DNA of 34,448 bases from a bacterium (GTDB lineage: Bacteria > Chloroflexota > Dehalococcoidia > Tepidiformales > Tepidiformaceae). A program made the translations under genes and the position numbers. The notes below the pieces were generated by a model. It worked only from the letters and a program-made list of their open reading frames with translations, ran no database searches and was not told the DNA's origin. Location: NCBI GenBank assembly GCA_017308185.1, contig JAFKFP010000106.1, forward strand, positions 1 through 34,448, in the 5' to 3' direction. This document shows positions 2,183 to 32,358 of this stretch, piece after piece (the first letter of the stretch is position 1; every line of letters begins with the position of its first letter).

Positions 2183-2476
2183 CTACCGTCGCTCCCACTC
2201 GTCGACAAGCGGCAGTGGCACGGGGCCCAGCGGTTGCTTCCGATCATGGCTTCGCCTGCGCAGGAGAACAAACGCAGCACCGAACGCTGCTACCGCGACC
2301 ACGACAGCCGCGTACCACGCCGAGCCGAAGGACAAGGCCGACAGGCCCCCGGCCACGGCAGCCAACGCCGGAATGAGCAGCGGTAGACAACATGGTATGC
2401 AAGCGGCCACTGCAAACAGCCAGATCTTGCGCGGCCGGGGCAGCCGGCTCAAAGCGCCGCCTCGGGCACCGGCCAT
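2183..2476 (-). CDS. Small two-helix membrane protein with a Cys-Cys pair, MerF-like
   Basis: 97 residues with two predicted membrane helices (about 17-43 and 50-70) and a basic C-terminal end. The first helix contains C-I-P-C-C followed by [11 protein letters not shown] vicinal Cys pair in the first of two helices is the layout of the small mercury transporters MerF and MerT/MerC, where the pair passes Hg(II) across the membrane. Sequence identity to a named mer protein is not obvious to me, so MerF-like describes the layout only. The start ATG (2474-2476) lies inside the end of the MerR-type gene (28-nt overlap), implying translational coupling and shared regulation. Confidence 0.65.
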
Positions 2477-3222: not shown

Positions 3223-3229
3223 GTCTCCA

Positions 3230-3260
3230 AGCATGGACCTTCGAGCGACTCGAAGGTCAA
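3230..3260 (-). promoter_or_regulatory. MerR-type promoter with operator dyad between -35 and -10
   Basis: On the minus strand a -35 TTGACC (3255-3260) and a -10 CATGCT (3230-3235) are separated by 19 bp, the over-long spacing that MerR-family activators correct by DNA distortion. The spacer holds a dyad: GACCTTCGAG and CTCGAAGGTC (3236-3258) separated by 3 nt. The start codon follows the -10 by only 7 nt, so the message has almost no leader. This points to autoregulation of the MerR gene and the genes behind it. Confidence 0.8.
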
Positions 3261-3309
3261 GTGGCTTGAGAAAGTCCATGGCAGCCCCCGAGTAAATCTA
3301 CCCGGATAC

Positions 3310-5929: not shown

Positions 5930-5998
5930 AGACTTCCTCCTGTAGTTCGACACTTCGGCAGAAATCGAAGTCAACCACCAAAAGAAAGAGGGGCGCGG

Positions 5999-6346
5999 TC
6001 AGATGCCGCACTCCCCACAATCCTCTGGCAGCAGAACCTCGAAATAGCTACCCAGCGACCGCAGCACTTCCGGCTCGACCCAGCACTCCCGCTCCTGGCC
6101 GTTCCGAACCATCGCGATGAGGCCGGCCGTCCGGAGCTCCTTCAAATGGTGCGAGACGGTCGAGGGCGCGATAGTCAGCATCGACGCCAGCTTCCCGACC
6201 GTGGCAACCATCCGGTCGTCGGTCGTCGTGGACCCCACGCAACAATTGCGCGCGAGGTACTCGAAGATCGCGAGCCGGTGAGGGTTACCGAGGGCCTGGA
6301 ACTGCTCAGCCAGCCTGGCCTGCTCCTCTGTTTGAAGTTTCGACAT
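5999..6346 (-). CDS. arsR: ArsR/SmtB-family transcriptional repressor
   Basis: 115 residues with the ArsR winged helix: FQALGNPHRLAIFEYL, then LTIAPSTVSHHLKELRTAGLI as recognition helix, and a wing with RNGQERECWV. Candidate thiol ligands are C35-C36 in an N-terminal helix, C88, and C110/C113 in a terminal CGECG. The arrangement is not the classical CVCDLC of E. coli ArsR, so the As(III) site would be a different one, as known for other ArsR subtypes. The ATG at 6346 is chosen because a strong promoter lies directly upstream and reads into it. It leads the flavoprotein and MFS genes, and should repress them until arsenite or antimonite binds. Confidence 0.88.
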   Translation of the reverse strand: MSKLQTEEQARLAEQFQALGNPHRLAIFEYLARNCCVGSTTTDDRMVATVGKLASMLTIAPSTVSHHLKELRTAGLIAMVRNGQERECWVEPEVLRSLGSYFEVLLPEDCGECGI

Positions 6347-6382
6347 GTCTCGAAGTATCGACAGCCCAGCCACCTCTGTCAA
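6339..6382 (-). promoter_or_regulatory. arsR promoter, leaderless, with candidate operator
   Basis: On the minus strand TTGACA (6377-6382) and GATACT (6354-6359) are 17 bp apart, close to the sigma-70 consensus. The ATG follows the -10 by 7 nt, so transcription probably starts at or just before the start codon. An imperfect dyad TTCGA-N6-TCGAA (6339-6354) covers the start site and is a plausible ArsR operator. Confidence 0.75.
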
Positions 6383-6414
6383 GCGTTCGTCTTGTCCGGG
6401 CGTAGACTCCCCCT

Positions 6415-6639
6415 ATGAGACAACGCGTGCGCGAGAAATCGGACGACCGTGTGAGGCGTCGGAGGATCGCGATCGGCGCAGGGGCTGGCGGATTTGTCCT
6501 GCTGTTGGTGGCGGTGCAGATGCTTACGTCCTCCAGCATCGGCGTCCTGGTCGCTGGATGGATCCTCGTCGTCTGGGGTGCGGGCGCCGCCCTCTGGGCG
6601 TTCCGGGAGTTATGGGAAACTCGCGCGCGACAGCCCTAG
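6415..6639 (+). CDS. Small membrane protein of unknown function
   Basis: 74 residues with a very basic N-terminus (RQRVREK..RVRRRR), then two predicted membrane helices (about 19-40 and 43-64) and a short charged tail. I do not recognise the family. No Shine-Dalgarno is visible; TAGACT lies 5 nt before the ATG and could be the -10 of a leaderless promoter, facing away from arsR. The positive-inside pattern supports a real inner-membrane protein. It lies between two ars units but nothing in the sequence ties it to arsenic. Confidence 0.5.
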   Translation: MRQRVREKSDDRVRRRRIAIGAGAGGFVLLLVAVQMLTSSSIGVLVAGWILVVWGAGAALWAFRELWETRARQP

Positions 6640-6749
6640 GCGTTAGATGGACCCCGCCAGCCCACGATGGAGCCCTTATCGACCTCGCGGCTCGTCGGGA
6701 CGCTACGGGCCCTCGCTGGGGTGACGGTGGGCGCCCGCAACCGATCCAC

Positions 6750-6971
6750 CTACTGCCGTAGAGCGAGCAGACGCTCACGCGCGTAACGGCGAACGAGCAT
6801 CGGCACGAAGGTCGTGACTGTCGGTCTACCTGAGAACGTTTGAAGCGCCTCATCCACGATGCGATCGATTGTTGCCCGGTCGAAGGAGCCCGTGAATTCA
6901 GCGGCGAGTCTGTCTGCTTCCTTCGCGACCATTCGCTTCAGTTCTGCCTCAACGTTCGAGCTGAAGGTCAT
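6750..6971 (-). CDS. Stand-alone three-helix-bundle domain of the kind fused to ArsC
   Basis: 73 residues, all helical: ELKRMVAKEADRLAAEF, then FDRATIDRIVDEALQTF, then TTFVPMLVRRYARERLLAL. This matches the pattern of the three-helix-bundle domain found at the N-terminus of many actinobacterial arsenate reductases. It occurs here as a separate gene beside the ArsR-ArsC fusion, which lacks such a domain. The ATG at 6971 is chosen because AGGAGA lies 7 nt upstream; the longer frame to 7058 has no family match. It is divergent from the arsR-arsC gene (110 nt apart). I infer a dimerisation or partner role for the reductase; this is unproven. Confidence 0.7.
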   Translation of the reverse strand: MTFSSNVEAELKRMVAKEADRLAAEFTGSFDRATIDRIVDEALQTFSGRPTVTTFVPMLVRRYARERLLALRQ

Positions 6972-7081
6972 TCCGTCTCTCCTGCGCCCCGGATCTCCAG
7001 CAGCAGTGCCGTGAGCGCCTGTCGGGAAGTCTATGCCAGAACGCCTTGTTTGATCCAACCGAGATTGATACAGTTTCGGTC

Positions 7082-7837
7082 ATGGCTATCCCGACACCCG
7101 GCCCGCCCCCCCCGGTCCTCGCACTCGGCGCCGACCCGGTCCGTTGGGCCCTGATGCGAGAGCTTTCGCAAAGCGACCGCCAGGTCGACGAACTCGTCGA
7201 TGCCCTGAAGAAGCCGCAGAACCTCGTGTCCTACCACCTCGGAAAGCTGCGCGCAGCGCAGGTCATTTCGGTGCGTCGGAGCTCGCACGACGCCCGTGGT
7301 CTGTATTACCGACTGGACCTCCCGCGATGCCAGGAGCTTCTTTCAGGCGCGGTCCATGCGCTGCACCAATCGCTGGAAGTCACCGCGATGACGAGCGTCC
7401 GCGAGCCTGGGAGCGCGGTAAGGGGCACCAGCGTCCTGTTCCTCTGCACTGCGAACAGCGCTCGATCGCAGATGGCTGAAGGTTTGCTCCGCGCTGCCGC
7501 CGCAGATGTGAGTGTCGCCAGCGCAGGGAATAAACCTTCGTCCGTCCATCCGAACGCCATCCGCGCTATGAAAAAGCGCGGCATCGATATTAGCGGCCAG
7601 ACATCGAAACACCTCGATGGATTCCGCGAGACCGCATTCGACACCGTTGTCACTGTCTGTGACCACCTGAAGGAGGAATGTCCGGACGTTCCGCGCGCTG
7701 GGCACGTCGTTCACTGGAGTATTCCCGACCCGGTCAGTGAGGGTGAGAATGCCGGCAAGCTTTCCGCCTTCGAGCGCGTCGCCGATGAATTGGCGGTACG
7801 TGTCCAGTATCTCATCCCCGTTCTGAGGGGAGCCTAG
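7082..7837 (+). CDS. ArsR-ArsC fusion: repressor domain plus thioredoxin-type arsenate reductase
   Basis: 251 residues in two parts. Residues 12-100 are an ArsR-like winged helix (ALGADPVRWALMRELSQ, then LVSYHLGKLRAAQVISVRRSS). Residues 113-251 are a low-molecular-weight phosphatase-fold arsenate reductase: the nucleophile loop CTANSAR (C122 to R128, CX5R), then TVCDHLKEEC (C193, C200), the pair that forms the disulfide cascade in thioredoxin-coupled ArsC, and an IPDP loop. It reduces arsenate to arsenite. The ATG at 7082 is used since it is followed by the family-like start; no Shine-Dalgarno is visible, and GATACA (8 nt upstream) may be the -10 of a leaderless promoter. It heads the GAPDH-ArsJ-ACR3 run (51-nt gap to GAPDH), so regulation and reduction are combined in one protein. 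Confidence 0.9.
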   Translation: MAIPTPGPPPPVLALGADPVRWALMRELSQSDRQVDELVDALKKPQNLVSYHLGKLRAAQVISVRRSSHDARGLYYRLDLPRCQELLSGAVHALHQSLEVTAMTSVREPGSAVRGTSVLFLCTANSARSQMAEGLLRAAAADVSVASAGNKPSSVHPNAIRAMKKRGIDISGQTSKHLDGFRETAFDTVVTVCDHLKEECPDVPRAGHVVHWSIPDPVSEGENAGKLSAFERVADELAVRVQYLIPVLRGA

Positions 7838-7888
7838 CCAATCGACGAATTGACATCGTCACTGCCAACACTGGAGACGGAGGAACCA

Positions 7889-8908
7889 ATGGCCATCCGC
7901 GTCGGGATTAATGGCTTCGGTCGCATGGGACGCCTCGCGCTTCGCGCGGCATGGGGCTCATCCGACTTGACGGTCGCTCATATCAACGAAGTCAAGGGCG
8001 GCACCGCCACAGCGGCACACCTACTGGAGTTCGACAGCGTACACGGCCGCTGGGCACGCGACATCCACGAGACGGAAGGTGGGCTAATGGTCGACGGCGT
8101 GCCGATCAGCTTCACCGAACATGCAGGTCCGGAAATGATCCCGTGGGCGCAACTAGGCGTCGACATCGTCATCGAGTCTTCGGGGAAGTTCCGGACGCCG
8201 GAGAGCCTGCAGCCCCACTTCGACAATGGTGCTCGGAAGGTCATCGTCGCGGCGCCGGTGAACAAGGGAGCCTTGAACATCGTCATGGGCTGCAACGATG
8301 ACCTGTACGACCCGCGCGAGCACCACCTGATCACTGCCGCTTCCTGTACGACGAACTGCCTCGCTCCGGTAGTGAAAGTCATTCACGAGGGCATCGGCAT
8401 CGTCCATGGCGCAATCACGACGGTGCACGACGCGACGAATACCCAGGTGGTCGTGGATGCCCCGCACAAGGATTTGCGTCGCGCCAGGTCCGCGCTGACT
8501 TCGCTGATTCCGACCTCCACGGGCTCGGCAACGGCCATCTCGCTGATCTATCCGGAGCTGAAGGGCAAACTCAACGGAATCGCCGTGCGCGTGCCATTGC
8601 TCAATGCTTCGCTCACGGACTGCGCCTTCGAAGTGAAGCGAAAGACGAGCGTTGAGGAAGTCAACAGCCTCTTCGAGAGTGCTTCCAAAGACTCGCTCAA
8701 CGGCATCCTCGGGTACGAGACCAGGCCGTTGGTCTCCGTCGACTACGTGAACGATCCACGATCGTCAATCGTCGATGCGCCATCGACGATGGTGGTGGAC
8801 GACACCTTCGTGAAGGTCATTGCTTGGTACGACAACGAGTGGGGCTACGTGAATCGGCTGGTCGAATTGACCGGCCGTGTCGCGCGTACCCTGCCAGGAG
8901 GCGCCTGA
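7889..8908 (+). CDS. ArsJ-associated glyceraldehyde-3-phosphate dehydrogenase
   Basis: 339 residues, full-length type I GAPDH. The NAD-binding start is [13 protein letters not shown]; the active-site motif is SCTTNC with the catalytic Cys153; [18 protein letters not shown] and the terminal [11 protein letters not shown] are all present. The [18 protein letters not shown] stretch resembles the GAPDH subtype that sits next to ArsJ. By the known mechanism it uses arsenate in place of phosphate, giving unstable 1-arseno-3-phosphoglycerate for ArsJ to export. The ATG at 7889 has GGAGG 4 nt upstream; an ATG-less extension to 7850 is not needed. It is 2 nt from arsJ, so the two are translated together. 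Confidence 0.93.
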
Positions 8909-8910
8909 GC

Positions 8911-10188
8911 ATGGCCACCGGCGCGGTCGAGCAGGTGAAGGGAGCTTCAGGCCACCTTCGAAACTACATGCTTGTCACGGGCGCCTACTGGGCGGATACC
9001 CTCACCGATGGCGCGCTGCGGATGCTCGTCCTCCTGTACTTCTATCAGCGTGGCTACTCTGCGCTCGAAGTCGCCATGCTCTTCCTGTTCTACGAGGTCT
9101 TCGGGATTGTCACCAATCTCGTCGGCGGCTGGATCGCGGCGAGACTGGGTTTGAAGTCCACCCTATTTGCCGGGCTGGGTACGCAACTTGTCGCCCTCTC
9201 GATGCTCATGGCAGGCGCCGGGTGGCTCACGGTTCCCTACGTCATGGTCGCCCAGGCGCTCTCCGGCATCGCCAAGGACCTCACCAAGATGAGCTCCAAA
9301 AGCGCTGTCAAGCTCCTCGTCACCGACGACTCTCAATCGACCCTATTCAAATACGTCGCCGTGCTTACAGGCTCAAAGAACGCTTTGAAGGGGATCGGCT
9401 TCTTCGTGGGTGGTCTCCTGCTCTACCTTGTTGAGTTCCGTGCTTCGGTGCTCGTCCTCGCGATCCTCGTGGCCACGGCATTGGCTTCGACCGCAATCCT
9501 GATGCGCGGCGACCTCGGAACCGCGAATAAGAAGGCCAAGTTCCAGCAGGTCTTCTCGAACAACCGCTCGGTGAATCTCCTCGCCGCCGCCCGCGTATTC
9601 CTCTTCGCATCCCGCGACGTTTGGTTTGTCGTGGGTCTCCCTGTCTTCCTGCGTTCCGTGATCGGCTGGAACTTTTGGCAGGTAGGGGCATTTATGGCTG
9701 TTTGGATCATCGGGTATGGGGCGGTGCAGGCTGCCTCCCCAATGATCTTGCGCCGCTTCTATCGTGACTCCGGCAATGCTCCAGATGGAACCACAGCGAT
9801 GTGGCTAGCCTTAATACTGGCTGCTTTCCCCGCCGGGATTGCATTGGGGCTGGCGGGGGATCTTCCGGCGGCGTGGATCATTGTGGTGGGTCTCATCGCC
9901 TTCGGAGTCATCTTTGCGCTCAACTCGGCGGTGCACTCCTACCTGATTCTCGCGTACACGGACAACGACAAGGTCGCGATGAACGTGGGCTTCTACTACA
10001 TGGCCAACGCCTGCGGACGGCTCGCTGGTACTGTGCTTTCAGGGATTCTCTACCAGCAATACGGGCTGGAGGGATGCCTGTGGGCGAGTGCTGGCATCAT
10101 ACTGGTGGCCGGCGTCATCTCGTCCTTGCTCCCATCCAACCGCAACGCCACTGTTTCGCTGGCGGCGGCAACGGGTGGAGGCGATTGA
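8911..10188 (+). CDS. arsJ: ArsJ, MFS exporter of 1-arseno-3-phosphoglycerate
   Basis: 425 residues with about 12 membrane helices. The opening NYMLVTGAYWADTLTDGALRMLVLLYF, the stretch GIAKDLTKMSSKSAVK and the ending with SAVHSYLILAYTDNDKVAMNVGFYYMANACGR are characteristic of ArsJ. It exports the arsenylated sugar phosphate made by the GAPDH encoded 2 nt upstream, and the compound then breaks down outside the cell. The ATG at 8911 has AGGAGG 9 nt upstream, located inside the GAPDH 3' end; the longer frame beginning at 8824 overlaps GAPDH and has no family match. The following ACR3 gene is 106 nt downstream. Confidence 0.93.
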   Translation: MATGAVEQVKGASGHLRNYMLVTGAYWADTLTDGALRMLVLLYFYQRGYSALEVAMLFLFYEVFGIVTNLVGGWIAARLGLKSTLFAGLGTQLVALSMLMAGAGWLTVPYVMVAQALSGIAKDLTKMSSKSAVKLLVTDDSQSTLFKYVAVLTGSKNALKGIGFFVGGLLLYLVEFRASVLVLAILVATALASTAILMRGDLGTANKKAKFQQVFSNNRSVNLLAAARVFLFASRDVWFVVGLPVFLRSVIGWNFWQVGAFMAVWIIGYGAVQAASPMILRRFYRDSGNAPDGTTAMWLALILAAFPAGIALGLAGDLPAAWIIVVGLIAFGVIFALNSAVHSYLILAYTDNDKVAMNVGFYYMANACGRLAGTVLSGILYQQYGLEGCLWASAGIILVAGVISSLLPSNRNATVSLAAATGGGD

Positions 10189-10236
10189 CCTGAGCGCCTG
10201 GCTCGCCTCTATGGCTACGACGACTTCTTGAGATGA

Positions 10237-10270
10237 CGCCGACCGGCCGGTTCAGGCACGACGGTCGGCG
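10237..10270. terminator. Intercistronic stem-loop between arsJ and acr3
   Basis: The arms CGCCGACCG (10237-10245) and CGGTCGGCG (10262-10270) can pair around a 16-nt loop. There is no T-tract. It may attenuate transcription into acr3, or stabilise the message. A full terminator seems unlikely as acr3 has no evident promoter of its own. Confidence 0.4.
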
Positions 10271-10294
10271 CCAAGCGACACTGGAGGCGCCTTT

Positions 10295-11401
10295 TTGCAC
10301 AAGACAGCCACTCGTCCCGGGCAGTTCGAGAGTTCGGTGCTCAGCCAGCTTTCCACGCTCGATAGGTTTCTGCCGGTCTGGATCGGTCTCGCGATGGCCG
10401 TTGGCCTCGCTCTCGGACGTATCTTCCCGGATCTGAACGACCAGCTCGACCGGGTGAAGGTCGACCAGACCTCGCTGCCAATCGCTATCGGCTTACTCGG
10501 GATGATGTACCCGGTGCTGGCGAAGGTGCGCTACGACCGGCTCGGCTCAGTTACCGCCGACAAGCCGCTCGTTGGCTCGTCGCTCCTGCTGAACTGGATC
10601 GTCGGCCCGGCCCTCATGTTCACGCTTGCCTGGGTTTTCCTTCCAGACCTGCCTGAGTTCCGCACCGGCATCATCCTGGTAGGACTCGCCCGCTGTATCG
10701 CCATGGTGCTCATCTGGAACTCACTCGCCTGCGGTGACACCGAGGCTGGCGCCGTCCTGGTCGTGCTCAACTCCGTGTTCCAGGTCGCGGCCTACGCTCT
10801 GCTCGGCTACTTCTACCTCGAAACCCTGCCCGGCTGGCTGGGCCTTGAACAGACCGCGATAGACTTCCAGCTCTGGGACATCGCTAAGTCCGTCATCATC
10901 TTCCTCGGCGTCCCCCTCGTCCTCGGCGCGCTAACGAGCATCATCGGCCGCCGTAAAAAAGGCCACGTCTGGTACGAGCAGCGCTTCCTTCCCCGGATCG
11001 GGCCATGGGCGCTGTACAGCCTGCTCTTCACAATCGTTGTACTCTTCGCCATCCAGGGTGATGCGATCACATCGCAGCCGTTCGACGTGGTCCGCATCGC
11101 GGTCCCGTTCCTTGCCTACTTCGCCCTGATGTGGACGGTTTCATTCGCCTGGGGACGCGCCCAGGGCCTCGATTATCCAAAGACTGCGACCCTCGCGTTT
11201 ACGGCGGCGGGCAACAACTTCGAGCTCGCCATCGCGGTTGCGATCGGGACCTTCGGCGTCACCTCTGGCCAGGCGCTAGCCGGGGTAGTTGGCCCACTCA
11301 TCGAAGTGCCCGTGCTGGTGGCGCTTGTCTATGTCTCCCTGTGGGCAAGACGCCGCTTCTTCGCTGCTGAACGCGGCGAACCGGCCTCGGCGCAGGCGTA
11401 G
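10295..11401 (+). CDS. acr3: ACR3-family arsenite efflux transporter
   Basis: 368 residues with about 10 membrane helices. ACR3 signatures: the LARCIAMVLIWNSLACGD segment with the conserved Cys134 in helix 4, and TLAFTAAGNNFELAIAVAIG with the conserved Glu in helix 9. It exports As(III) (sometimes Sb(III)) using the proton gradient. The start is TTG at 10295, supported by GGAGG 8 nt upstream and by family length. It receives the arsenite made by the ArsR-ArsC reductase, and so complements the ArsJ route for arsenate. The C-terminal codons and the first bases after the stop resemble the extreme left edge of the window. Confidence 0.93.
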   Translation: MHKTATRPGQFESSVLSQLSTLDRFLPVWIGLAMAVGLALGRIFPDLNDQLDRVKVDQTSLPIAIGLLGMMYPVLAKVRYDRLGSVTADKPLVGSSLLLNWIVGPALMFTLAWVFLPDLPEFRTGIILVGLARCIAMVLIWNSLACGDTEAGAVLVVLNSVFQVAAYALLGYFYLETLPGWLGLEQTAIDFQLWDIAKSVIIFLGVPLVLGALTSIIGRRKKGHVWYEQRFLPRIGPWALYSLLFTIVVLFAIQGDAITSQPFDVVRIAVPFLAYFALMWTVSFAWGRAQGLDYPKTATLAFTAAGNNFELAIAVAIGTFGVTSGQALAGVVGPLIEVPVLVALVYVSLWARRRFFAAERGEPASAQA

Positions 11402-19169: not shown

Positions 19170-21914
19170 CTAATCCACGCGCAGCGTCGTCCTCATCCCT
19201 TCCTGGGTGTGGCTGATGTATCCGCCATCCACCTCGTCGACGATGTCGCAAAGCAGCTCATACTCGCCCGCTTCGAGGTTGAGGTGGAGCGTGGCGCTCC
19301 CTGCGGTGGGGATGTTCTCCGTCCGGCCCACCATCTCGTAGTCGCCATCCGAGGCATGGCGGAGAACCACCAGGTTGTGGACGCTTCCCGGTTCACCCTC
19401 ACCATGCGCCCCGTGTCCATCCTCCGCTGGATGGACCACGATTAGTGTGGTCTCTCCGGCGGAGACGGACTGCCGGTCGGGCCGTACCCTCCAGTTCGTG
19501 AGTTCCACCCTGAGGGCATCCTCCGGGACCACGACGGAATGGTCGTCGCCGCCCTCGTGGCCATCGTCGTTGCTCTCGCCGAACCAGCCCCGGTCGAGGC
19601 CGGTAAATACCGTCAGGGGAAGAACGAGGACGGCAGTCGCTACGACCATGGCGAATAGTGGCGCCCGGTTGGCAGTGACGAACGACCGACGCGGTCCGCC
19701 GTACTCGTTGCCGCTCGTCGTGGCGATCGACTGACTCTTCGTGCGCAGCCGGAGGCTGTTCGCCATCACACTCACCGAGCTAAAGGCCATTACGCCGCCG
19801 GCGATGATCGGGTTAAGCAGGGCCAGGGCGGCCACCGGCAACGCTACGACGTTGTAGCCGAACGCCCACACGAGGTTCTGCCGAATCGCGGTCAGCGTGG
19901 AGCGGCTTAACGTGATCGCCTCCGCTATCTTCGACACATCGCCGTTGAGGAGTGTGATGTCGCCGGCCTCGATCGCCGCGTCTGTGCCGGTGCTCATCGC
20001 GATGCCGATGTCTGCCTGAGCCAGAGCCGGCGTGTCGTTAATCCCGTCGCCCACCATGGCGACGGATAGGCCCTCGGCCTGCAGCGACCGCACCAGCTCA
20101 AGCTTGTCTTCAGGGCGCGCGCCCGCTCGAAACTCGGTGATCCCAACGCTCGCGGCGACCGCCGCCGCAGCCCGCTCGTTGTCACCCGTCATCATGATCA
20201 CGCGAAGGCCTAGCTTATGAAGGGCCTCGACCGCGCGCGGCGCGTTCCGCTTCACCTCGTCGGCGATTCCCACTATGCCTTCGATGCGCCCATCGACCGA
20301 AGCCAGGATGACCGTCCTTCCCTGAGATTCCAGAGACCGGACTCGTTCCGCCACGGACGACGAGATGGAGACGCCATGCTCTTCGAAGAGCCGCGAGTTT
20401 CCAGCCAGGACTACGTCACCGTCCACGACGGCCCTGACACCGCGTGCAGTGATGGCCTCGAATTCAGTCGCTTTGGCGAGGTCATGGCCCTCGTCAACAG
20501 CGGCGTCGACGATCGCTCTGCTGAGCGGGTGTTCGCTTCCTGATTCGGCCGAGGCGATCAGCCGAAGAAGTTCGCCACGGGCCAGGGAACCGAAGGCGAC
20601 GACGTCCGTGACCTGCGGCCGGCCTTCGGTCAGCGTGCCGGTCTTGTCCAAGACAATCGCGCCAAGCCCCCGGGTGCGTTCAAGGACCTCCGCATTCTTG
20701 ATGAGGATGCCGCGCTCAGCGCCCATCCCCGTGCCGACCATGATCGCGGTTGGGGTCGCAAGACCAAGCGCGCACGGGCAAGCGATGACCAGGATGGCAA
20801 CCGCTGCAACCATCCCTGTTTGCCAGTCGCCACCGATGCTGCCCCACGCCAAAAAGACCACTCCCGCGAGCGCGATGACGATCGGGACGAACACCGCTGC
20901 CACCTGGTCGACGAGCTTCTGGATGGGGGCCTTCGAGCCCTGGGCCTCTTCCACCATTCGAGCCATGCGGTTCAGCGCGGTCTGTTCACCCACTGCCGTT
21001 GCCTCAACGTAAATCAGGCCGTTCTGGTTTACCGTGCCGCCGATCACGTGGTCGCCAATGCGCCGCTCCACGGGGATCGCTTCGCCGGTGATCATGGCCT
21101 CGTCGACCGTGCTGTGGCCCTCACGGATCACGCCGTCGACGGCGATCCGCTGCCCCGGCCGGACGATGAAGAGGTCGCCTAGCTTCACCTCCTCGACGGG
21201 AATTTCCGTCTCGGTGCCATCCCTGAGGACGGTTGCCGTCTTTGCGGAAAGTCCGAGGAGCGAGCGAATCGCACTCGACGCAGCCCCCTTCGAGCGCTCC
21301 TCGAAGTACTTGCCCATTGTGATGAAGACGAGCACGGCCGCGCTCACGTCGAAGAACATGCTTTCGTGACTTCCGCTCGCTACCACCCACACGCTGTAGC
21401 CGTAGGCAACGCTCGTGCCGAGGGCGACGAGGACGTCCATGTTGGGGTTTAAGTGTCGAAGGCTGGTGTAGCTGCCGCGGTAGAACCGCCAGCCGAGCCC
21501 GAGTTGCACGGGCGTGGCGAGCGCAACCAGGAGCCAGCCGGTCAGATCGCGGTCGCCGTTGATGTGCATCCCGGCGATGTCCATGGCCATTGCCAGCACC
21601 ACGGTTGGAATGGCAAGAAGCGCACCCGCGATGAGCGTGATAAGGGTGGCGCGCGCGTGGTTGGCGCGCACCGATTCGCGATCGTTGTCGGCGGACGATG
21701 GCTGCGCCTGGTAGCCGGCCTTCTCCACCGCGGTCACCAGGGACTCGACCGGGACTTCACCGGCGAACGTTACCCGCGCAGTCTCAGCCGCGAAGTTCAC
21801 GCTGGCCGTTTCTACGCCTTCTACTTTGCTGAGCGCGCGCTCCACGCGGCGCACACACGAGGCGCAGGTCATCCCGGCGATATCTAACGTTACTGCTGGA
21901 CCTGAGTTCTCCAC
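19170..21914 (-). CDS. copA: CopA-type Cu(I) P1B-ATPase fused to a C-terminal cupredoxin-like domain
   Basis: 914 residues. An N-terminal HMA domain has MTCASC (C17, C20). The ATPase core follows with TGEAIP (the TGE actuator loop), the metal motif CPC at 379-381, DKTGT at 423-427, the HP pair at 462-463, TGDNE and GDGIND. The helix-7/8 motifs YN (688) and MxxSS-type are also present. Known CopA pumps end near residue 730. Here about 185 more residues follow: a ninth predicted helix (753-772), an acidic His-bearing linker, and a beta-rich domain with H846, C889, H902 and M907, a Cys-His-x4-Met type-1-copper-like set. A ninth helix would place this domain outside the membrane, on the export side. 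The start is GTG 21914, with AGGAGG 5 nt upstream; the ATG frame from 22091 would translate through the promoter. Confidence 0.92.
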
Positions 21915-21955: not shown

Positions 21956-21983
21956 GAGACGCAATCGGCGGTCCCCGGTTACA
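21956..21983 (-). promoter_or_regulatory. ECF-type promoter of copA
   Basis: On the minus strand TGTAACC (21977-21983) and CGTCTC (21956-21961) are exactly 15 nt apart. The same bipartite motif occurs upstream of copZ, the CopB-like ATPase and the MFS exporter. The CGTC-type -10 and the -35 with AAC are typical of extracytoplasmic-function sigma factors; the CorE-like sigma factor encoded nearby is the natural candidate. The copA GTG is 41 nt beyond the -10. Confidence 0.82.
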
Positions 21984-22080: not shown

Positions 22081-22108
22081 TGTAACCACACCCCACGCTC
22101 TACGTCTC
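22081..22108 (+). promoter_or_regulatory. ECF-type promoter of the copZ-sigma operon
   Basis: TGTAACC (22081-22087), 15 nt, CGTCTC (22103-22108), identical in the conserved parts and spacing to the copA promoter that faces the other way 97 nt off. As the sigma factor gene is third in the downstream run, this promoter would let it activate its own expression. Confidence 0.82.
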
Positions 22109-22158
22109 AACTCGCGAAGGGCGTACCGCCAATGAGCGAGCCCAACGGAGATATAGAC

Positions 22159-22569
22159 ATGGAAACCACCCTTAGCGTCCCCGACATCACCTGCGGCCAC
22201 TGCGCCCGAACCATCACCAGCGCCGTTGAGCCCCTCGACGGCATCCGCTCAGTGAACGTCGATATCCTCAGCCGCCGGGTGAGCCTGGCGTACGACCAGC
22301 CGGCCGACCTGGAGGCTGCGGTGAACGTCATGGCTTCGAAGGGTTACCTGGTCGCGGGCGGGCAAATGGACGAGCAGCAGCGCCGCGGAACGTCCGTGGA
22401 CCCCGTGTGCGGAATGAGCGTCCGCGTTGAGGGTGCGGCCTTCACGACCAGCCGCGAAGGTGTTGACTACTACTTCTGCTCCAGCGGCTGCCAGCAGACA
22501 TTCGAATCCGCTGAACCGGCAGCGGCACAGGAACGTAGTACAGGCTGCGCCTGCTGCTCGCCCGCCTAA
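22159..22569 (+). CDS. CopZ-like HMA domain fused to a YHS domain
   Basis: 136 residues. Residues 3-66 are a heavy-metal-associated domain (VPDITCGHCARTI with C12 and C15), a cytoplasmic Cu(I) chaperone fold that hands copper to CopA. Residues 78-115 are a YHS domain (VDPVCGMSV with C84, then YYFCSSGC with C107 and C111), a TRASH-like metal-binding module. A CACC tail ends the protein. ATG 22159 has GGAG 8 nt upstream; an in-frame ATG at 22132 is an alternative and cannot be excluded. It lies divergent from copA and is first in a three-gene run (35-nt gap to the acetyltransferase). Confidence 0.88.
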   Translation: METTLSVPDITCGHCARTITSAVEPLDGIRSVNVDILSRRVSLAYDQPADLEAAVNVMASKGYLVAGGQMDEQQRRGTSVDPVCGMSVRVEGAAFTTSREGVDYYFCSSGCQQTFESAEPAAAQERSTGCACCSPA

Positions 22570-22604: not shown

Positions 22605-23567
22605 ATGCTCGCTGCTGAATCGAAAAACACTCGGCAATCGCTCGCGGTCCCGGCGTTTCGCACCACCGCCGTTACCAAAGCCACAGCGGATCTGGGAGAC
22701 CTCCTCTGGAGAGCGTCCCAGGATGCTGACGACATCCTCTTCCGGCCGCCCGACGAATGGTGGCCGCTCTCCGGCTGGTCCCACGTCAGCTCTCTCCTCT
22801 GGCGTGGGCCCCTGCCGGTAGGCATCGCGGGGCTGGCGCCGTCGGCGTTCCCGGGGCGAGCCGAGGCGCGCCTAGGCCTTGCACCGGCCACGCGAACGCC
22901 GACATCCGCCCGCCACGCCGTTGAGGCTGCACTTCAACTGGCCGCTGAATCGGGGTACGAGGAACTGGTGCTGGCGCTGCCGGGCGCAGCGGCCTGGGCT
23001 CGGGCTGCCGCGAGCGAGGCCGGTTTCGAGCCGAGCCACACATTTCAGGTGCTCGAACGGCCGGCGTCGGTTTCGTCTCGTCGAATCGAACGCAGCCTTG
23101 AGTTCGAAGCCGTTGGCAGCGAGCGGTTGGACGAGCTGCTGGCCGCTTTGAACGCAGCATACGAGGGCAGTCCCGACTTTGTGCCCATCGCCCGCGCGAC
23201 ACTGGCCGCGGAACTGGCCATGGCGAAAAGCCCATTCGTGGTCGCGAAGGGCGAGTCCGGCGAGATCCTTGCTACCGCCCACTTACGCTTCTCCGCAACG
23301 GCGACGAACCCCTCGGGCGGGCCATACGCCTGGGTCTCGAACCTCACGGTTTTGCCGGCTGCTCAAGGACTGGGCCTCGGCCGGAAGATGATCCGCCGCG
23401 CCGTAGCGGAGCTTCATGCGATGGGTGCGCTCTCTGTCACACTCGGCGTCGACTCGCGGAACCTCCGGGCGGTGCGCCTGTATGAGAGCGAAGGCTTCCA
23501 GTTTGTCGGCGAACTCGTCTTCTGGAGTCGGCGCGTTCCGTCCAGGCGAACCGATCCGGTACGCTGA
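22605..23567 (+). CDS. GNAT-family acetyltransferase (tandem-domain size)
   Basis: 320 residues. The C-terminal half is a clear GNAT domain: AWVSNLTVLPAAQGLGLGRKMIRRAVAEL (the acetyl-CoA loop Q-G-L-G-L-G) and NLRAVRLYESEGFQFVGELVFW. The N-terminal half (residues 60-150) looks like a degenerate second GNAT fold (GYEELVLALPGAAAWARAAASEAGF), the layout of MshD-like two-domain enzymes. It acetylates an unknown small molecule or protein. It lies between copZ and the ECF sigma factor with gaps of 35 and 33 nt, so it should be made under copper stress. The copper-related substrate, if any, is unknown. Confidence 0.82.
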   Translation: MLAAESKNTRQSLAVPAFRTTAVTKATADLGDLLWRASQDADDILFRPPDEWWPLSGWSHVSSLLWRGPLPVGIAGLAPSAFPGRAEARLGLAPATRTPTSARHAVEAALQLAAESGYEELVLALPGAAAWARAAASEAGFEPSHTFQVLERPASVSSRRIERSLEFEAVGSERLDELLAALNAAYEGSPDFVPIARATLAAELAMAKSPFVVAKGESGEILATAHLRFSATATNPSGGPYAWVSNLTVLPAAQGLGLGRKMIRRAVAELHAMGALSVTLGVDSRNLRAVRLYESEGFQFVGELVFWSRRVPSRRTDPVR

Positions 23568-23600: not shown

Positions 23601-24146
23601 ATGACGTCGCCTACCGCTGAACAGCAGCCTATGGAACACCTGTACGAGAGCCGGCAGAGATTCGTGGAGTACGTGCGCCGTCGCGTCGACGACCCGGAGC
23701 TAGCCGAGGACATCGTTCACGACAGCCTGCTGAAAGCACTGAAATCCGCGCCAGAGCTGCGGGACGACGAACGCCTCATCCCATGGTTCTTCCGCATCCT
23801 GCGCAACGCGGTTGTCGACGAGTACCGCAAGCGCGATGTCGCGCGGCGGCATGTGCAACAAACCGACGAACTGCCGGACCTGCCCGATCTGAGTGATGAG
23901 GAAGAGCGGACCATCTGTGCCTGCTTCCAGGCCCTGCTTCCCTCGTTGAAACCCGAGTACAGCGATCTCATTGAGTCCTTGGATCTTGGCGGGGAGCAGC
24001 CCGAGGCCGTCGCAAACCGGCTTGGCATCACCCCGAACAACCTCAAGGTGCGGCGCCACCGTGCGCGGCAGGCGCTCCGGCAGCAATTGGAGAACGCGTG
24101 CGGTACATGCGCGCAAGGCAATTGCATCGGAGATTGCACTTGCTGA
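23601..24146 (+). CDS. CorE-like ECF sigma factor with Cys-rich tail (ECF44-type)
   Basis: 181 residues. Region 2 (about 17-85): DPELAEDIVHDSLLKALKS, LIPWFFRILRNAVVDEYRKR. Region 4 (about 112-162): YSDLIESLDLGGEQPEAVANRLGITPNNLKVRRHRARQAL. The linker holds a CxC pair (C106, C108), and the C-terminus holds C167, C170, C175, C179 and C181. A CxC linker plus a Cys-rich tail is the mark of CorE-type sigma factors, which in Myxococcus xanthus are switched directly by copper (CorE) or by Cd/Zn (CorE2) without an anti-sigma factor. No anti-sigma gene is adjacent here either. It is third in the copZ operon and should read the TGTAACC-N15-CGTCTC promoters. Which metal it senses is inferred from context. 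Confidence 0.88.
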   Translation: MTSPTAEQQPMEHLYESRQRFVEYVRRRVDDPELAEDIVHDSLLKALKSAPELRDDERLIPWFFRILRNAVVDEYRKRDVARRHVQQTDELPDLPDLSDEEERTICACFQALLPSLKPEYSDLIESLDLGGEQPEAVANRLGITPNNLKVRRHRARQALRQQLENACGTCAQGNCIGDCTC

Positions 24147-24163: not shown

Positions 24164-24652
24164 TCACTCGACGGTCAACAGCGCGTACATTCCCTCCTCG
24201 TAATGGTTCACGTCGTCGCCATCGACGACGAGGCATGAGAGTTCGTAGCGGCCGGGTTCGAGTACCGCCTCGCCTGTCTTTTCTTCGCCGACCTTGATGT
24301 CCGCGAGATTAAGGACCGGTGCGCCGAACTTCGTCTCGCCGACATCCGCTCCGTCCTGCAAGCGCGCGACGACGAGTTGGTGTGTTGCGCCGGCCTCACC
24401 TGCACCATGGCCCCCATGCGCTTCTTCTTCGTGAGTTGCCCTGAATGACACAGTCCCCGCCTTGACCGTCGCCGAGGAGGGTTCGACGGCCCAGTTCTTG
24501 AGGTTCACGGTGATGCTCGTCGCGGACCCGCCGTCAGCGACCGACCTCGTCGGAGTCGCGTCCGTGTCGTCATCTCCTCCGCATGCAACGGCCAGTGCGG
24601 TCAGCACGGCCAGGCCCGCGCCGAAGAGGTAGAGCTTCGTGTTCTTGTTCAT
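24164..24652 (-). CDS. Cupredoxin-like lipoprotein
   Basis: 162 residues. A signal peptide with lipobox LAVAC (C24) anchors it to the outer face of the membrane. After a Thr/Asp linker a beta-rich domain follows (ITVNLKNWAVEPSSATVKAG onward). Candidate copper ligands are H91, C140, H150 and M155, again with an H-x4-M pair after the Cys. A His/Glu-rich loop (HEEEAHGGHGAGEAGATHQ) precedes the first ligand. The domain is clearly a paralogue of the C-terminal domain of the CopA fusion, including the loop and the ending. It may take up or store copper released by the pumps. The start has AGGA upstream. It ends 17 nt from the convergent sigma factor gene. Confidence 0.82.
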   Translation of the reverse strand: MNKNTKLYLFGAGLAVLTALAVACGGDDDTDATPTRSVADGGSATSITVNLKNWAVEPSSATVKAGTVSFRATHEEEAHGGHGAGEAGATHQLVVARLQDGADVGETKFGAPVLNLADIKVGEEKTGEAVLEPGRYELSCLVVDGDDVNHYEEGMYALLTVE

Positions 24653-24659
24653 GAGGTTC

Positions 24660-24678
24660 CTACTATGAATGGTAGTAG
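24660..24678 (-). promoter_or_regulatory. Shared 19-bp start-site motif, copy 1
   Basis: Read on the minus strand it is CTAC-N8-ATAGTAG, with an inverted CTACTA/TAGTAG core, placed 7 nt before the lipoprotein start. The same spacing and ends occur at 25734-25752 before the HMA-like gene. The position over the transcription or translation start suits a repressor site; the regulator is unknown. TTGTCC and TAAGCT 16 nt apart further upstream may be the promoter. Confidence 0.45.
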
Positions 24679-25263: not shown

Positions 25264-25731
25264 TCAGCAGCAGGGGCAAGGTTCGCGGCTCTCGGTTGCC
25301 CGAAAGCCAGTTCGTTCGATGGCAGCAACGATCTCCTCAAGCGCAACGACTTCGGAGAGCAATTCGACACAGACCGCCTGGCGAGGCTCATCGAACCGGG
25401 CGGCCGTTACACCGGGCGTTGATCGCAGCACCCGAACCAGCAGGTGTCCGCCTCCGCAGTCCGGTTCGAAGCCAAAGATGCGCAGGCGGTGTTGCGAGAT
25501 TCGCTGCATACAATGCCCTCCGTGGTTCATGAACTTTATGTGGGCGAAGACCAGCCCCACGATGACGAGGATGGCCAGGCCCCAGGCGATGGGTCCGCCA
25601 ACGGCGCTCGCGACCGAAATCGCAATGGCCATCTCCACAGACATGGCCATCACGAGAATCGCCATGCTGAGCATCGCGCCCGCTGTGTTGTGGTGACCGC
25701 TCTCGTGTCCGGTTTCATGTCGCTGTGCCAC
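25264..25731 (-). CDS. Two-helix membrane protein with HMA-like fold lacking CxxC
   Basis: 155 residues. A His-bearing N-terminus (HETGHESGHH) leads into two membrane helices (about 18-40 and 46-66) and a HIKFMNHGGHC motif. A cytoplasmic-size domain (about 85-146) follows with HMA-like order (beta-alpha-beta-beta-alpha-beta: LLVRVLRSTPGVTAARFDEPRQAVCVELL, EEIVAAIERTGFRA). The metal loop that is normally CxxC reads D-C-G-G-G-H (C92, H96). A CPCC tail ends it. The combination is not one I recognise. A metal relay between membrane and cytosol is a fair guess only. The start is GTG 25731 with a weak GGGATA upstream; the shared motif lies directly before it. The Met/His-rich gene follows. Confidence 0.72.
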   Translation of the reverse strand: MAQRHETGHESGHHNTAGAMLSMAILVMAMSVEMAIAISVASAVGGPIAWGLAILVIVGLVFAHIKFMNHGGHCMQRISQHRLRIFGFEPDCGGGHLLVRVLRSTPGVTAARFDEPRQAVCVELLSEVVALEEIVAAIERTGFRATESREPCPCC

Positions 25732-25733
25732 TT

Positions 25734-25752
25734 CTACTATCCCCTGTCGTAG
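25734..25752 (-). promoter_or_regulatory. Shared 19-bp start-site motif, copy 2
   Basis: On the minus strand it reads CTAC-N8-ATAGTAG with the same ends and spacing as copy 1 at 24660-24678, and lies 2 nt before the GTG of the HMA-like gene. It could be an operator common to the minus-strand copper genes. No copy was seen elsewhere by eye. Confidence 0.42.
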
Positions 25753-26162: not shown

Positions 26163-26190
26163 TGTAACCGAAAGCCGGCTCCCACGTCTC
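26163..26190 (+). promoter_or_regulatory. ECF-type promoter of the CopB-like ATPase operon
   Basis: TGTAACC (26163-26169), 15 nt, CGTCTC (26185-26190). Identical in conserved bases and spacing to those of copA, copZ and the MFS gene. The start codon of the ATPase is 69 nt downstream. It shares CACGTCTCCTGA around the -10 with the MFS promoter at 30835. Confidence 0.82.
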
Positions 26191-26259: not shown

Positions 26260-28599
26260 ATGCCTGAACAGGACCACAGCCAGCATCGCGATCACTCGCA
26301 GCACTCCGCCCCGGAGCCCCGACGGGCGTCATCGGCGGATCCGCATGGCGTGCATGCCGGCCACGGCGATCACGTACCCGGACCGACGGCCGCCGCCCCC
26401 GACGCCGGTCACACCGATCATGCTGGGCATGGAATGCAATCTCCGTCGCCGGCCGCTCGGGTGGGTCATGGTGAGCACGCGCAGCACGCCGCGGACGCAA
26501 GGTTGGACGAACACAAGGGTCACGGCGGAGGGCATGACCACGCTGCAATGATGTCCGATCCCCGCATGGCAGCGGCTATGGAGCGGGACATGCGCAACCG
26601 CTTCCTCGTCTCGTTCCTGCTGACGATCCCGGTGATCCTCTACTCGGAGCTCGGCGAGACAATCTTTGGCGACATGCCTCCGGCGCCGTTCGGGCTGAGC
26701 ATGGAATGGATGGGCTTTCTCCTCGCGACGCCGGTCGTGCTCTACGGCGGATGGGTGTTCATTCTTGGGACTTACGACGCCCTCCGAAGCCTGCGGCTCG
26801 ACATGTCAGTCCTGATCTTCACTGGCGTGGCGGCCGCCTACCTGTATTCGGTCGGAGTGACTTTCACTGGCGGCGGCGAAGTGTTCTACGAAGCCGCGGC
26901 AATGCTCATCACGTTCGTGCTGTTCGGCCACTGGATGGAGATGCGCAGCCGGCGCGGCACCACGGACGCGCTCCGTGCCCTGCTCACGCTCGTCCCGGAG
27001 CGGGCACTGGTCGTCCGGGACGGTCAGGAGGTCGAGGTCGACACGGCGGAGGTCGTGCCCGGCGACCGCGTACGCATCCGGCCTGGCCAGCGCGTACCGG
27101 TCGATGGCACCGTGCTCGAAGGCCGTAGCTCCATCGACGAATCGCTGGTGACCGGCGAATCCCTCCCGGTCGAGCGCCGCGAAGGGGACCAGGTAGTGGC
27201 AGGCTCGGTGAACGGTGACGGCCTCCTGCTGATCGAAGCCGTGGGGACGGGCAGCGAGACGGTGCTCGGACGAATCATCGAGCTGGTCCAGAATGCCCAG
27301 GCGTCGAAGGCGCCGGCCCAGCGAATCGCCGACCGGGCCGCGGCCGTCCTGGTCGTGGTGGCAGTGAGCTCCGGCCTGCTGACATTCGCGCTCTGGATGT
27401 TGCTGGATGGTGACACGACCACAGCGCTGCGCTTTGCCATTGCCGCCGTTGTCATCGCTTGCCCGGACGCCCTCGGGCTCGCCACGCCGACCGCGGTTGC
27501 GGTCGCGACGGGACTCGGCGCCCAGCACAAGATCCTGATTAAGGACGCAGCCACGCTTGAGCGGGTGTCGGCGGTGAATGCCATCGTGCTCGATAAGACC
27601 GGCACCATCACAGAAGGGAAGCCCCAGGTCGTGGAGATCGCGCCCGCGGACGGATGGGACAAGCGCATGCTGTTGCGATATGCAGCGGCACTGGAGCAGT
27701 CGTCAACGCATCCGCTAGCGGAGGCAGTCGTCAACGCGACCCATCCCCTGGGGCTTCATGAGCTACCAGCATTCGAAGCCGCCGAAAACGTGCCCGGGTA
27801 CGGCGCGAAGGGAGTCGTCGAAGGCAAGCAGGTTCTCGTCGGCAATGTGGATCTGCTTCGACGTGAAGGCGTAGCGGTCGGCGCTCTTGAGGCAGAAGCC
27901 GACCGAATCGCGACCGCGGGACGCACGGTCGTGGCCGTCGCGGTCGGCGGCGAGCCGGCCGGAGTGATCGCCCTTGCGGATGTCGTTCGCGCTTCTGCTG
28001 CCGGGACGGTCCGGGCGTTCAAGGATCAAGGAATCGAGGTTGCACTGCTCACGGGCGACAACGAAGGCACGGGACGCGCGGTGGCCGCGCAGGTGGGCAT
28101 CGACCGGGTGTTCGCCAACGTGAAGCCGGCGGATAAGGCCGAATACGTGCGAAGACTCCAGGCCGAGGGCAAAGTGGTCGCGATGGTTGGCGACGGCGTC
28201 AACGATGCACCGGCACTCGCCGCCGCCGATGTAGGCATCGCGATTGGAGCGGGCACGGACGTTGCTATCGAGACCGCCTCCGTCGTGCTCATGCGAAGTG
28301 ACCCCGTCGACATCCTCAAGGCAATCGACCTGAGCAAGGCAACGATGCGGAAGATGAAGCAGAACCTCTTCTGGGCTTCGATCTACAACGTGCTCGCCAT
28401 ACCCCTTGCCGCTGGCATCATCTACAACAGCACCGGCTTCCAGATTCGGCCAGAGATCGCGGCACTGCTCATGTCAGTTTCCTCCATCATCGTGGCCACG
28501 AACGCGGTGCTCCTCCGCCGCCAGGGTCAGCACATGGACGAGGTCGAGCGGGAAGTCGTCGTCCAGACGCCCGCGCAGCTGCAGAGTGCCACCACATGA
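26260..28599 (+). CDS. CopB-like P1B-ATPase with His-rich N-terminus and a CPD metal motif
   Basis: 779 residues. The first 95 residues hold about 18 His in HxxH-like runs and no HMA CxxC domain, as in CopB-type ATPases. The core has TGESLP, the sixth-helix motif CPD (401-403, ACPDALGLATP), DKTGT (445-449), the HP pair (SSTHPLAEAV), TGDNEGT and GDGVND. CopB proteins normally carry CPH and CopA proteins CPC; Asp in the third place is unusual, so the metal cannot be assigned with certainty. The end (YNVLAIPLAAG then SVSSIIVATNAVLLRR) is typical of CopB. It should export a copper ion or related metal. The start has GAGGA upstream. The BNR lipoprotein gene overlaps its stop (ATGA). Confidence 0.9.
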   Translation: MPEQDHSQHRDHSQHSAPEPRRASSADPHGVHAGHGDHVPGPTAAAPDAGHTDHAGHGMQSPSPAARVGHGEHAQHAADARLDEHKGHGGGHDHAAMMSDPRMAAAMERDMRNRFLVSFLLTIPVILYSELGETIFGDMPPAPFGLSMEWMGFLLATPVVLYGGWVFILGTYDALRSLRLDMSVLIFTGVAAAYLYSVGVTFTGGGEVFYEAAAMLITFVLFGHWMEMRSRRGTTDALRALLTLVPERALVVRDGQEVEVDTAEVVPGDRVRIRPGQRVPVDGTVLEGRSSIDESLVTGESLPVERREGDQVVAGSVNGDGLLLIEAVGTGSETVLGRIIELVQNAQASKAPAQRIADRAAAVLVVVAVSSGLLTFALWMLLDGDTTTALRFAIAAVVIACPDALGLATPTAVAVATGLGAQHKILIKDAATLERVSAVNAIVLDKTGTITEGKPQVVEIAPADGWDKRMLLRYAAALEQSSTHPLAEAVVNATHPLGLHELPAFEAAENVPGYGAKGVVEGKQVLVGNVDLLRREGVAVGALEAEADRIATAGRTVVAVAVGGEPAGVIALADVVRASAAGTVRAFKDQGIEVALLTGDNEGTGRAVAAQVGIDRVFANVKPADKAEYVRRLQAEGKVVAMVGDGVNDAPALAAADVGIAIGAGTDVAIETASVVLMRSDPVDILKAIDLSKATMRKMKQNLFWASIYNVLAIPLAAGIIYNSTGFQIRPEIAALLMSVSSIIVATNAVLLRRQGQHMDEVEREVVVQTPAQLQSATT

Positions 28600-30834: not shown

Positions 30835-30862
30835 TGTAACCGCCCGCTGCTCCACACGTCTC
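30835..30862 (+). promoter_or_regulatory. ECF-type promoter of the MFS exporter
   Basis: TGTAACC (30835-30841), 15 nt, CGTCTC (30857-30862), the fourth copy of the motif, in the correct orientation 62 nt before the MFS start. Confidence 0.8.
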
Positions 30863-30924: not shown

Positions 30925-32358
30925 ATGGCAACCACAAGTCCGGCGCGACCGATCGCCCAACAGCGCACCGCCGCAGAAGTCATGGAGGGCCGCCGTTGGT
31001 GGGCTCTCCTGGTGCTCTGCGCGGCGCAGTTCATCGTCATCGTCGATACCTCGATCGTCGCGATCGCACTTCCGGCGATTCAGAGCGACCTCAGCATCTC
31101 GTCCAGCAACTTGCAGTGGGTGTTCAATGCCTACGTCGTCGTGCTGGCCGGGCTACTCCTCCTCGGTGGAAAGCTGGCCGACATATTCGGACAACGACGC
31201 ATCTTCCTGACCGGGTTCGCGATCCTGACGGGAGCATCGCTGGCCGCTGGACTGGCGCAGTCGGGGGAGGCCCTCTTCGCCGCTCGCGGCGCAATGGGCC
31301 TCGGAGCGGCACTGATTGCGCCATCGGCTCTCTCAATGCTATTCGGCATCTTCGGTTCCCGGCCGCACGAGTTGGGTAAGGCACTCGCGTTCTTCGGCGC
31401 CGCCGCGCCTGCCGGCGGTACAGCTGGCGTATTCCTTGGCGGCGTCATCACCGAGTGGATGGACTGGCGCTGGACCTTCCTCATCAACATCCCCGTGGGC
31501 CTGCTCGTGCTCGCGGTCACTTCCTCGCTCTTGCCAGCCGGCATCCGGCGCGGCGGACGCCTCGACATCATAGGCGCCCTCGTCGTGACCGCCGCCATGA
31601 TCATCGGTGTCTACGGGGTCGTCACGGCGCCCGATACGGGCTGGGGCTCGACCCAGACGATCTCGCTCCTGGGTGGCGCTGCTGGGCTGCTCGCCGCCTT
31701 CGTTGTCATCGAAGGGGTGCAGAAGGAGCCGCTCGTGCGGCTCGGTATCTTCCGGGCACCGAACCTGTCTGCCGGCAACATCGCCATGGCACTACTTGGC
31801 GCCGCGTGGATTCCCCTGTGGTTCTTCTTGAACCTCTACCTCCAGCAGGTCCTCGGCTACGGCGCCTTCGAAAGTGGCCTCGCACTCCTGCCGATGACCG
31901 GCGCGATCATGCTCCTCATGGTGGCCGCCACCGGACGTCTGACGGCCATCTTCGGCATCAAGCTGAACATCGCGGCGGGCATGGTGTTCCTCGTGGCCGC
32001 ACTGCTGCTGCTCGCCCAAACGCCGACTGACGGTGAGTTCCTGCTTCACGTGCTGCCGGCGTCACTGCTGGCCGCGGTCGGCATGTCGTTCGCCTACATC
32101 CCTGCGATGATCGCCTCGACGGCCAGCGCGCCGACTGAGGACTCCGGTCTCGCCTCCGGGCTCGTGAGCACGACCTACCAGGTGGGTTCGGCCCTCGGAC
32201 TCGCGGCGATGACGGCGGTCGCACAGTCGTACACCAACGGCACTGGTCTGACCGACTTCAACGACGGCTTCCACGCCGCGTTCTACGGCGCGGCGGTGGT
32301 CGCGGTAGTCGGTGGCCTGGCAGCCCTCGCGTTCATTCGGACGCCCCGCAAGGGATAG
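30925..32358 (+). CDS. MFS exporter, DHA2 (EmrB/QacA) type
   Basis: 477 residues with about 14 membrane helices. DHA2 features are seen: FIVIVDTSIVAIALPAIQSDL in the first helix, NLQWVFNAYVV, motif A GGKLADIFGQRRIFL, and GAALIAPSALSML. Such proton antiporters export drugs or other hydrophobic or cationic compounds. The start has AGGAG upstream. Its link here is the ECF-type promoter at 30835, so it should belong to the copper response, possibly exporting a metal complex or metallophore; this is inference. A hairpin terminator follows. Confidence 0.9.
   Translation: MATTSPARPIAQQRTAAEVMEGRRWWALLVLCAAQFIVIVDTSIVAIALPAIQSDLSISSSNLQWVFNAYVVVLAGLLLLGGKLADIFGQRRIFLTGFAILTGASLAAGLAQSGEALFAARGAMGLGAALIAPSALSMLFGIFGSRPHELGKALAFFGAAAPAGGTAGVFLGGVITEWMDWRWTFLINIPVGLLVLAVTSSLLPAGIRRGGRLDIIGALVVTAAMIIGVYGVVTAPDTGWGSTQTISLLGGAAGLLAAFVVIEGVQKEPLVRLGIFRAPNLSAGNIAMALLGAAWIPLWFFLNLYLQQVLGYGAFESGLALLPMTGAIMLLMVAATGRLTAIFGIKLNIAAGMVFLVAALLLLAQTPTDGEFLLHVLPASLLAAVGMSFAYIPAMIASTASAPTEDSGLASGLVSTTYQVGSALGLAAMTAVAQSYTNGTGLTDFNDGFHAAFYGAAVVAVVGGLAALAFIRTPRKG

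Follow-up and report, generated by a model that had tools for sequence, protein, structure and literature searches.

A CorE-like ECF sigma factor with a variant cysteine-rich tail and a predicted copper regulon in a Dehalococcoidia bacterium

The stretch of DNA analyzed here (34,448 nt, contig JAFKFP010000106.1; hereafter, the window) belongs to the 3.14 Mb genome of a Dehalococcoidia bacterium. At 23601..24146 on the forward strand, it carries a gene for a 181-residue ECF sigma factor that we describe as CorE-like, on account of its Pfam domains, its clade and its cysteine elements. The open reading frame starts with an ATG that is preceded by GGGGAG, which resembles a ribosome-binding site. 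The matches to Sigma70_r2 (PF04542) and Sigma70_r4_2 (PF08281) are both above the Pfam cut-offs, and these sigma2 and sigma4 regions make up the entire Pfam domain content of the protein. The original prediction of seven cysteines, five of which close the C-terminus as C-x2-C-x4-C-x3-C-x-C, holds exactly in the translation: Cys106 and Cys108 form one element, and Cys167, Cys170, Cys175, Cys179 and Cys181 form the other. The tail reads CGTCAQGNCIGDCTC, such that its last Cys is also the end of the protein.

The sigma gene is the third member of an apparent operon in which the genes are about 35 bp apart, all on the same strand: it is preceded by genes for a metal-binding protein with HMA and YHS domains (22132..22569, forward strand; Pfam HMA 1.3e-12, YHS 4.9e-10) and for a GNAT acetyltransferase (22605..23567, forward strand; Pfam Acetyltransf_1 2.7e-15). 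The latter protein also shows a weak similarity to the mycothiol synthase MshD (42.8 bits, vs a cut-off of 163). Downstream, and convergent with the sigma gene, is the gene for a cupredoxin-like lipoprotein (24164..24652, reverse strand). The lack of an anti-sigma gene had also been claimed, and we concur: the neighbours on either side were all identified, and none is anti-sigma-like by Pfam or by similarity.

The sigma operon lies between the genes for two copper P1B-ATPases. Upstream of the sigma operon, and divergent from it, lies copA (19170..21914, reverse strand), the product of which is a CopA-like P1B-ATPase with an HMA domain, a CPC motif and a cupredoxin-like C-terminal extension. 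Further downstream is copB (26260..28599, forward strand), which encodes a CopB-like P1B-ATPase with a His-rich N-terminus and CPD in TM6. Both exceed the 397-bit cut-off of the NCBIfam copper-translocating ATPase model TIGR01511 (572 bits for CopA, 576 bits for CopB); both also pass the Cd-family model TIGR01512, but for each of them the copper model scores higher. An MFS transporter (DHA2-like; 30925..32358, forward strand; Pfam MFS_1 7e-45) is a predicted member of the same regulon (see below), and the window additionally encodes a DUF305/CopM-like protein and a second YHS protein. P1B-ATPase genes adjoin related sigma genes at most of the loci that we examined.

Some features of these partners deserve comment. 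CopA contains an extra hydrophobic stretch as well as the C-terminal cupredoxin-like domain, which is homologous to the lipoprotein encoded at 24164 (E = 6e-9); this domain is probably an acceptor of copper outside the membrane that has been fused to the pump. In CopB, CPD stands in place of CPC or CPH, as it also does in G016, which represents a sister genus, in G068 and G382, and in other Chloroflexota. Elsewhere (2449-11401) the window encodes a MerR-type regulator, a flavoprotein, an ArsR-ArsC-like fusion, GAPDH, an MFS protein and an SBF/ACR3-like transporter; as a whole, the contig resembles an island of metal-resistance genes.

We next consider the two cysteine elements. The CxC motif (Cys106-Ala-Cys108; 23916..23924, forward strand) is invariant in all 10 aligned homologues, the window protein included, as are four of the five cysteines of the C-terminal Cys-rich domain (CRD; Cys167 to Cys181; 24099..24143, forward strand). 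In 21 of 22 distinct proteins, the CxC lies 61 residues ahead of the first tail Cys. The original prediction placed the CxC between regions 2 and 4. This stands as regards the junction of sigma2 and sigma4, but the motif is not in a loose linker: in the AlphaFold model it is part of the first sigma4 helix (residues 99-115). Residues 168-181 are modelled as disordered (pLDDT below 50 for the tail; the model was built with six sequences), which is compatible with a tail that becomes ordered upon metal binding. A profile search of the PDB with the window sigma retrieved sigma2/sigma4 relatives only, none of which covers the tail.

A reference for the tail is CorE of Myxococcus xanthus, in which the cysteines at positions 181, 184, 189, 192, 194 and 206 describe C-x2-C-x4-C-x2-C-x-C plus one; of these, Cys181, Cys184, Cys192 and Cys194 are named as invariant, and exact spacing is not a defining feature (PMC3107203). 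Cys167, Cys170, Cys179 and Cys181 of the window protein align with this invariant set, and Cys175 is the equivalent of CorE Cys189. The span between the second tail Cys and the last Cys pair is uniform in the 21 other proteins, and is one residue longer in the window protein; the extra residue sits between Cys175 and Cys179 (x3 vs x2). We found the x3 gap elsewhere only in G016, with a tail peptide identical to that of the window, even though the surrounding coding DNA is 77% identical and synonymous changes occur throughout the tail. Because this peptide is the same despite the divergent DNA, a sequencing or frameshift artefact can be rejected as its source, and the spacing variant is real and appears to be under purifying selection. 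A separate variation is seen in four alphaproteobacterial CRD sigmas (L039, L040, L042 and L045), which have a CorE2-like CC pair in the tail and no equivalent of Cys189; they possibly represent a further class of metal specificity.

To place the window protein without recourse to its cysteines, we built a tree of 77 ECF sigmas from an alignment in which the CxC was masked and the tail was cut off. A single branch, with SH-aLRT support of 100, sets apart the 22 sigmas that possess both elements (the window protein plus 21 others). Among them are proteins from Phenylobacterium zucineum, Roseobacter litoralis and Roseovarius TM1035, which emerged from a tblastn search of plasmids (42 records) and whose host organisms and replicons match those of founding members in the PMC3107203 list. 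Presumably they are the listed accessions themselves; the two from Roseovarius lie one gene apart, in line with the listed numbers 00365 and 00375. Within this clade, the window sigma groups with Chloroflexota members, near proteins from a Manganitrophus plasmid and from Bacteroidota MAGs. We assign the window sigma to the CorE group (ECF44/ECF238) by phylogeny. Chance clustering of cysteines is ruled out by the invariant positions, the constant 61-residue distance and the recovery of the clade without the Cys columns.

CorE-like sigmas have been known since 2011, at that time from Proteobacteria, Acidobacteria, Verrucomicrobia and Nitrospira (PMC3107203), and the only members reported to have been studied experimentally are CorE and CorE2, both from one myxobacterium (PMC8103513). 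Our literature search, the reach of which stopped short of the core ECF papers and which is therefore a weak negative, retrieved no description of a CRD sigma from Chloroflexota. Strong matches were detected in 4 of 99 genomes in the window's own relative set (Dehalococcoidia MAGs); in a set of 400 genomes from the phylum, such matches occur in the window's genome and two others, with a truncated fragment in G152 as a possible third. This patchy occurrence suggests horizontal transfer.

Another observation concerns the promoters. Comparison of the DNA upstream of copB with that of G016 revealed a conserved block that contains TGTAACC-N15-CGTC. The window contains four exact copies of this motif, vs an expectation of 0.009 (the mean of 1000 dinucleotide shuffles, in which the maximum was 2). 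All four sites are located 25-75 bp ahead of start codons: that of the sigma operon (22081..22106, forward strand), which would amount to autoregulation, and those of copA (21958..21983, reverse strand), copB (26163..26188, forward strand; the block shared with G016) and the MFS efflux gene (30835..30860, forward strand; the MFS gene of G016 is likewise preceded by a site). The position of the copA site is the reason that we set the copA start at the GTG at 21914, behind AGGAGG. When spacers of N14-16 were allowed, the whole genome yielded only five sites, four of them in the window; the fifth (N14) falls within an open frame. The AAC-to-G distance in the predicted promoters is 16-17, and the rule for CorE promoters is a spacing of 16-18 (PMC3107203). 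A looser form of the motif, with up to two mismatches, was not in excess in the window (21 matches, vs 21.9 in shuffles), and so we used exact matches alone. The CRD-sigma motif was not found before the lipoprotein gene (24164..24652). Upstream of that gene, and of the gene at 25264-25731, there is instead an imperfect palindrome, CTACTAT-N-GTAG (24660-24678 and 25734-25752); both copies are conserved in G016 and one is also present in G019, and they are possibly operators for a second regulator.

The TGTAACC/CGTC motif also lies beside a CRD sigma gene at seven other loci (G016, G068, G382, G191, G475, G583 and the Manganitrophus plasmid), where it precedes P1B-ATPase, YHS or other genes; these associations span Chloroflexota, Bacteroidota and Nitrospirota. 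In G382, a CopA gene on a separate contig is preceded by one more copy. The base that follows CGTC, which was outside our search pattern, is T in 16 of 16 sites linked to CRD sigmas (a set that includes near-copies from sister genomes), vs 2 of 24 background matches. We also compared genomes that encode a CPD-type CopB homologue: four with the sigma have the site, and eight without the sigma lack it. Two genomes complicate this count. In G019 there is a site but no detected CRD sigma, and the contig stops about 800 bp upstream of copB; G092 carries a divergent CRD sigma but lacks the site. The hypergeometric p value for co-occurrence, which ignores the kinship of the genomes, is 0.002 if G019 and G092 are left out, 0.007 if G019 is treated as a contrary case, and 0.023 if both are. 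The CRD sigmas of G092, G610, G533, G525 and G483 had no strict match in their vicinity, and so the motif is valid only for the subgroup closest to the window sigma. From the co-occurrence of sites and sigmas, we strongly infer that the window sigma reads the TGTAACC/CGTC motif, and the four sites probably indicate the genes that it turns on.

In considering all of these data, we regard it as highly probable that the window encodes a CorE-like, metal-activated ECF sigma that is its own copper sensor, and that drives its own operon, copA, copB and the MFS exporter. The original reading of the protein as CorE-type is supported by both cysteine elements, the missing anti-sigma gene, the clade obtained without the Cys elements, the copper-related neighbourhood and the promoter-defined regulon. 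The original prediction included neither the copper operon nor the promoters, and did not remark on the extra residue relative to the CorE tail. We envisage the following sequence of events: upon a rise in cytoplasmic copper, the ion would be bound by Cys167, Cys170, Cys175, Cys179 and Cys181, probably joined by Cys106 and Cys108 at the edge of sigma4; the bound copper would order an otherwise flexible tail, and so render the sigma competent to bind RNA polymerase or promoter DNA. The active sigma would then transcribe from TGTAACC-N14/15-CGTCT promoters. One target would be its own operon (HMA-YHS chaperone, GNAT and sigma), which would generate positive feedback, and the others (copA, copB and the MFS exporter) would bring about the export of copper. 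That copper is the ligand we infer; that it acts by binding to the CRD plus the CxC would follow by analogy with CorE (PMC3107203). Several points count against this proposal: G019 has the site but no detected sigma, five genomes have CRD sigmas with no strict motif nearby, the tail spacing is one residue off that of CorE, and other ECF sigmas of this genome, in which there are four more ECF matches, could be the ones that read AAC/CGT promoters.

The tail spacing may also bear upon the choice of metal. Could the longer gap between the equivalents of Cys189 and Cys192 define a CRD subtype with another metal or redox response, such as activation by Cu(I) in a reducing host, vs the Cu(II)-on/Cu(I)-off behavior of CorE? 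We view this idea as doubtful; were it true, the gap would set a response different from that of CorE. A related proposal, which we deem improbable, is that the sigma is a self-sensing CorE type of which the cognate metal is Zn, Cd or Ag, possibly through the altered tail. The x3 gap between the third and fourth tail cysteines is indeed peculiar to the window protein among the 22, its ATPases pass the Cd-family model, and PMC9023288 and PMC8999054 describe the CorE2 paralogue as a Cd/Zn sensor with a specificity that depends on Cys positions. However, the protein lacks the residue reported to set Cd/Zn specificity in CorE2, Cys174, and has the Cys189-equivalent; moreover, both ATPases favor copper over Cd models, and their HMA, His-rich and cupredoxin-like partners are nearby.

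It is still less probable that the protein is an ordinary ECF sigma, with a Cys tail that holds a structural metal or reports thiol oxidation, and that the cop genes obey other regulators: the MerR-type protein encoded at 2449, or a factor that recognizes the CTACTAT palindrome. That MerR-family gene is related to CueR/ZntR, and the palindromes at 24660 and 25734 are conserved, but the latter are not at the copA or copB promoters, and the four sites have the AAC/CGT form typical of ECF sigmas and accompany the sigma in three phyla. Lastly, we dismiss the notion that the Cys pattern is a product of chance or convergence in a protein of a different ECF group (SigZ, for example, or the Cys-rich ECF287/288), since SigZ (TIGR02959), although the best NCBIfam match, scores only 98.8 bits, far under its cut-off of 168.65, and since, although other Cys-tailed ECFs exist (PMC8999054; OrbS, PMC9023288), the CRD sigmas still form a single clade with full support when the Cys columns are removed, and the OrbS motif is unlike the window tail.

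We therefore return to the copper-sensing CorE-like reading, according to which this is a known kind of self-sensing sigma, here in a Dehalococcoidia bacterium. The useful additions are the promoter consensus, the probable regulon and the tail-spacing variant. The window sigma comes with a probable promoter and four targets, and the motif also accompanies its relatives in Chloroflexota, Bacteroidota and Nitrospirota, so both the pairing of sigma with promoter and the metal specificity are directly testable in a laboratory strain. The natural insertion of one residue in the presumed metal site offers a variant with which to probe how Cys spacing relates to specificity for Cu(I), Cu(II) or Cd/Zn.

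These features can be set against those of named systems. One is OrbS of Burkholderia cenocepacia, which likewise is an ECF sigma that carries its own Cys-based metal sensor, but is inhibited by iron, contains C-x2-C-x3-C-x5-C and controls siderophore genes (PMC9023288). Another is the CRD sigma on a Candidatus Manganitrophus plasmid (CP114563, L037): it is 50% identical to the window protein, with the same CxC and a similar tail, and the same TGTAACC-N15-CGTCT sites lie upstream of a CopB-like gene; it differs in that it is plasmid-borne and its tail, CRSCATHGCLDCTC, has the CorE spacing. CorE itself, formerly of ECF44 and now placed with ECF238 (PMC3107203, PMC8999054), shares with the window sigma the sigma2/sigma4 architecture, the CxC at the junction, a CRD with Cys189 or its equivalent, the lack of an anti-sigma, a copper operon with P1B-ATPases, and AAC...G promoter spacing within 16-18. 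In contrast to CorE, the window tail has x3 rather than x2 between its third and fourth cysteines and stops at its last Cys, with no equivalent of Cys206, so the functions of the longer CorE tail, whatever they are, are missing in this lineage; the host is a member of the Dehalococcoidia; and the neighbours are HMA-YHS and GNAT genes, where CorE has a multicopper oxidase. CorE2 of M. xanthus, described in PMC8999054 and PMC9023288 as a Cd/Zn sensor, resembles the window sigma in architecture and group. Its motif, C-C-x3-C-x2-C-x-C, is said in PMC9023288 to owe its Cd/Zn specificity to the second Cys (Cys174), and the window protein has Ala171 at this position; on that basis, a CorE2-like Cd/Zn type is disfavored. 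With a Cys189-equivalent and without the CorE2-type adjacent Cys, the aligned Cys set of the window sigma is closer to that of copper-sensing CorE than to that of CorE2.
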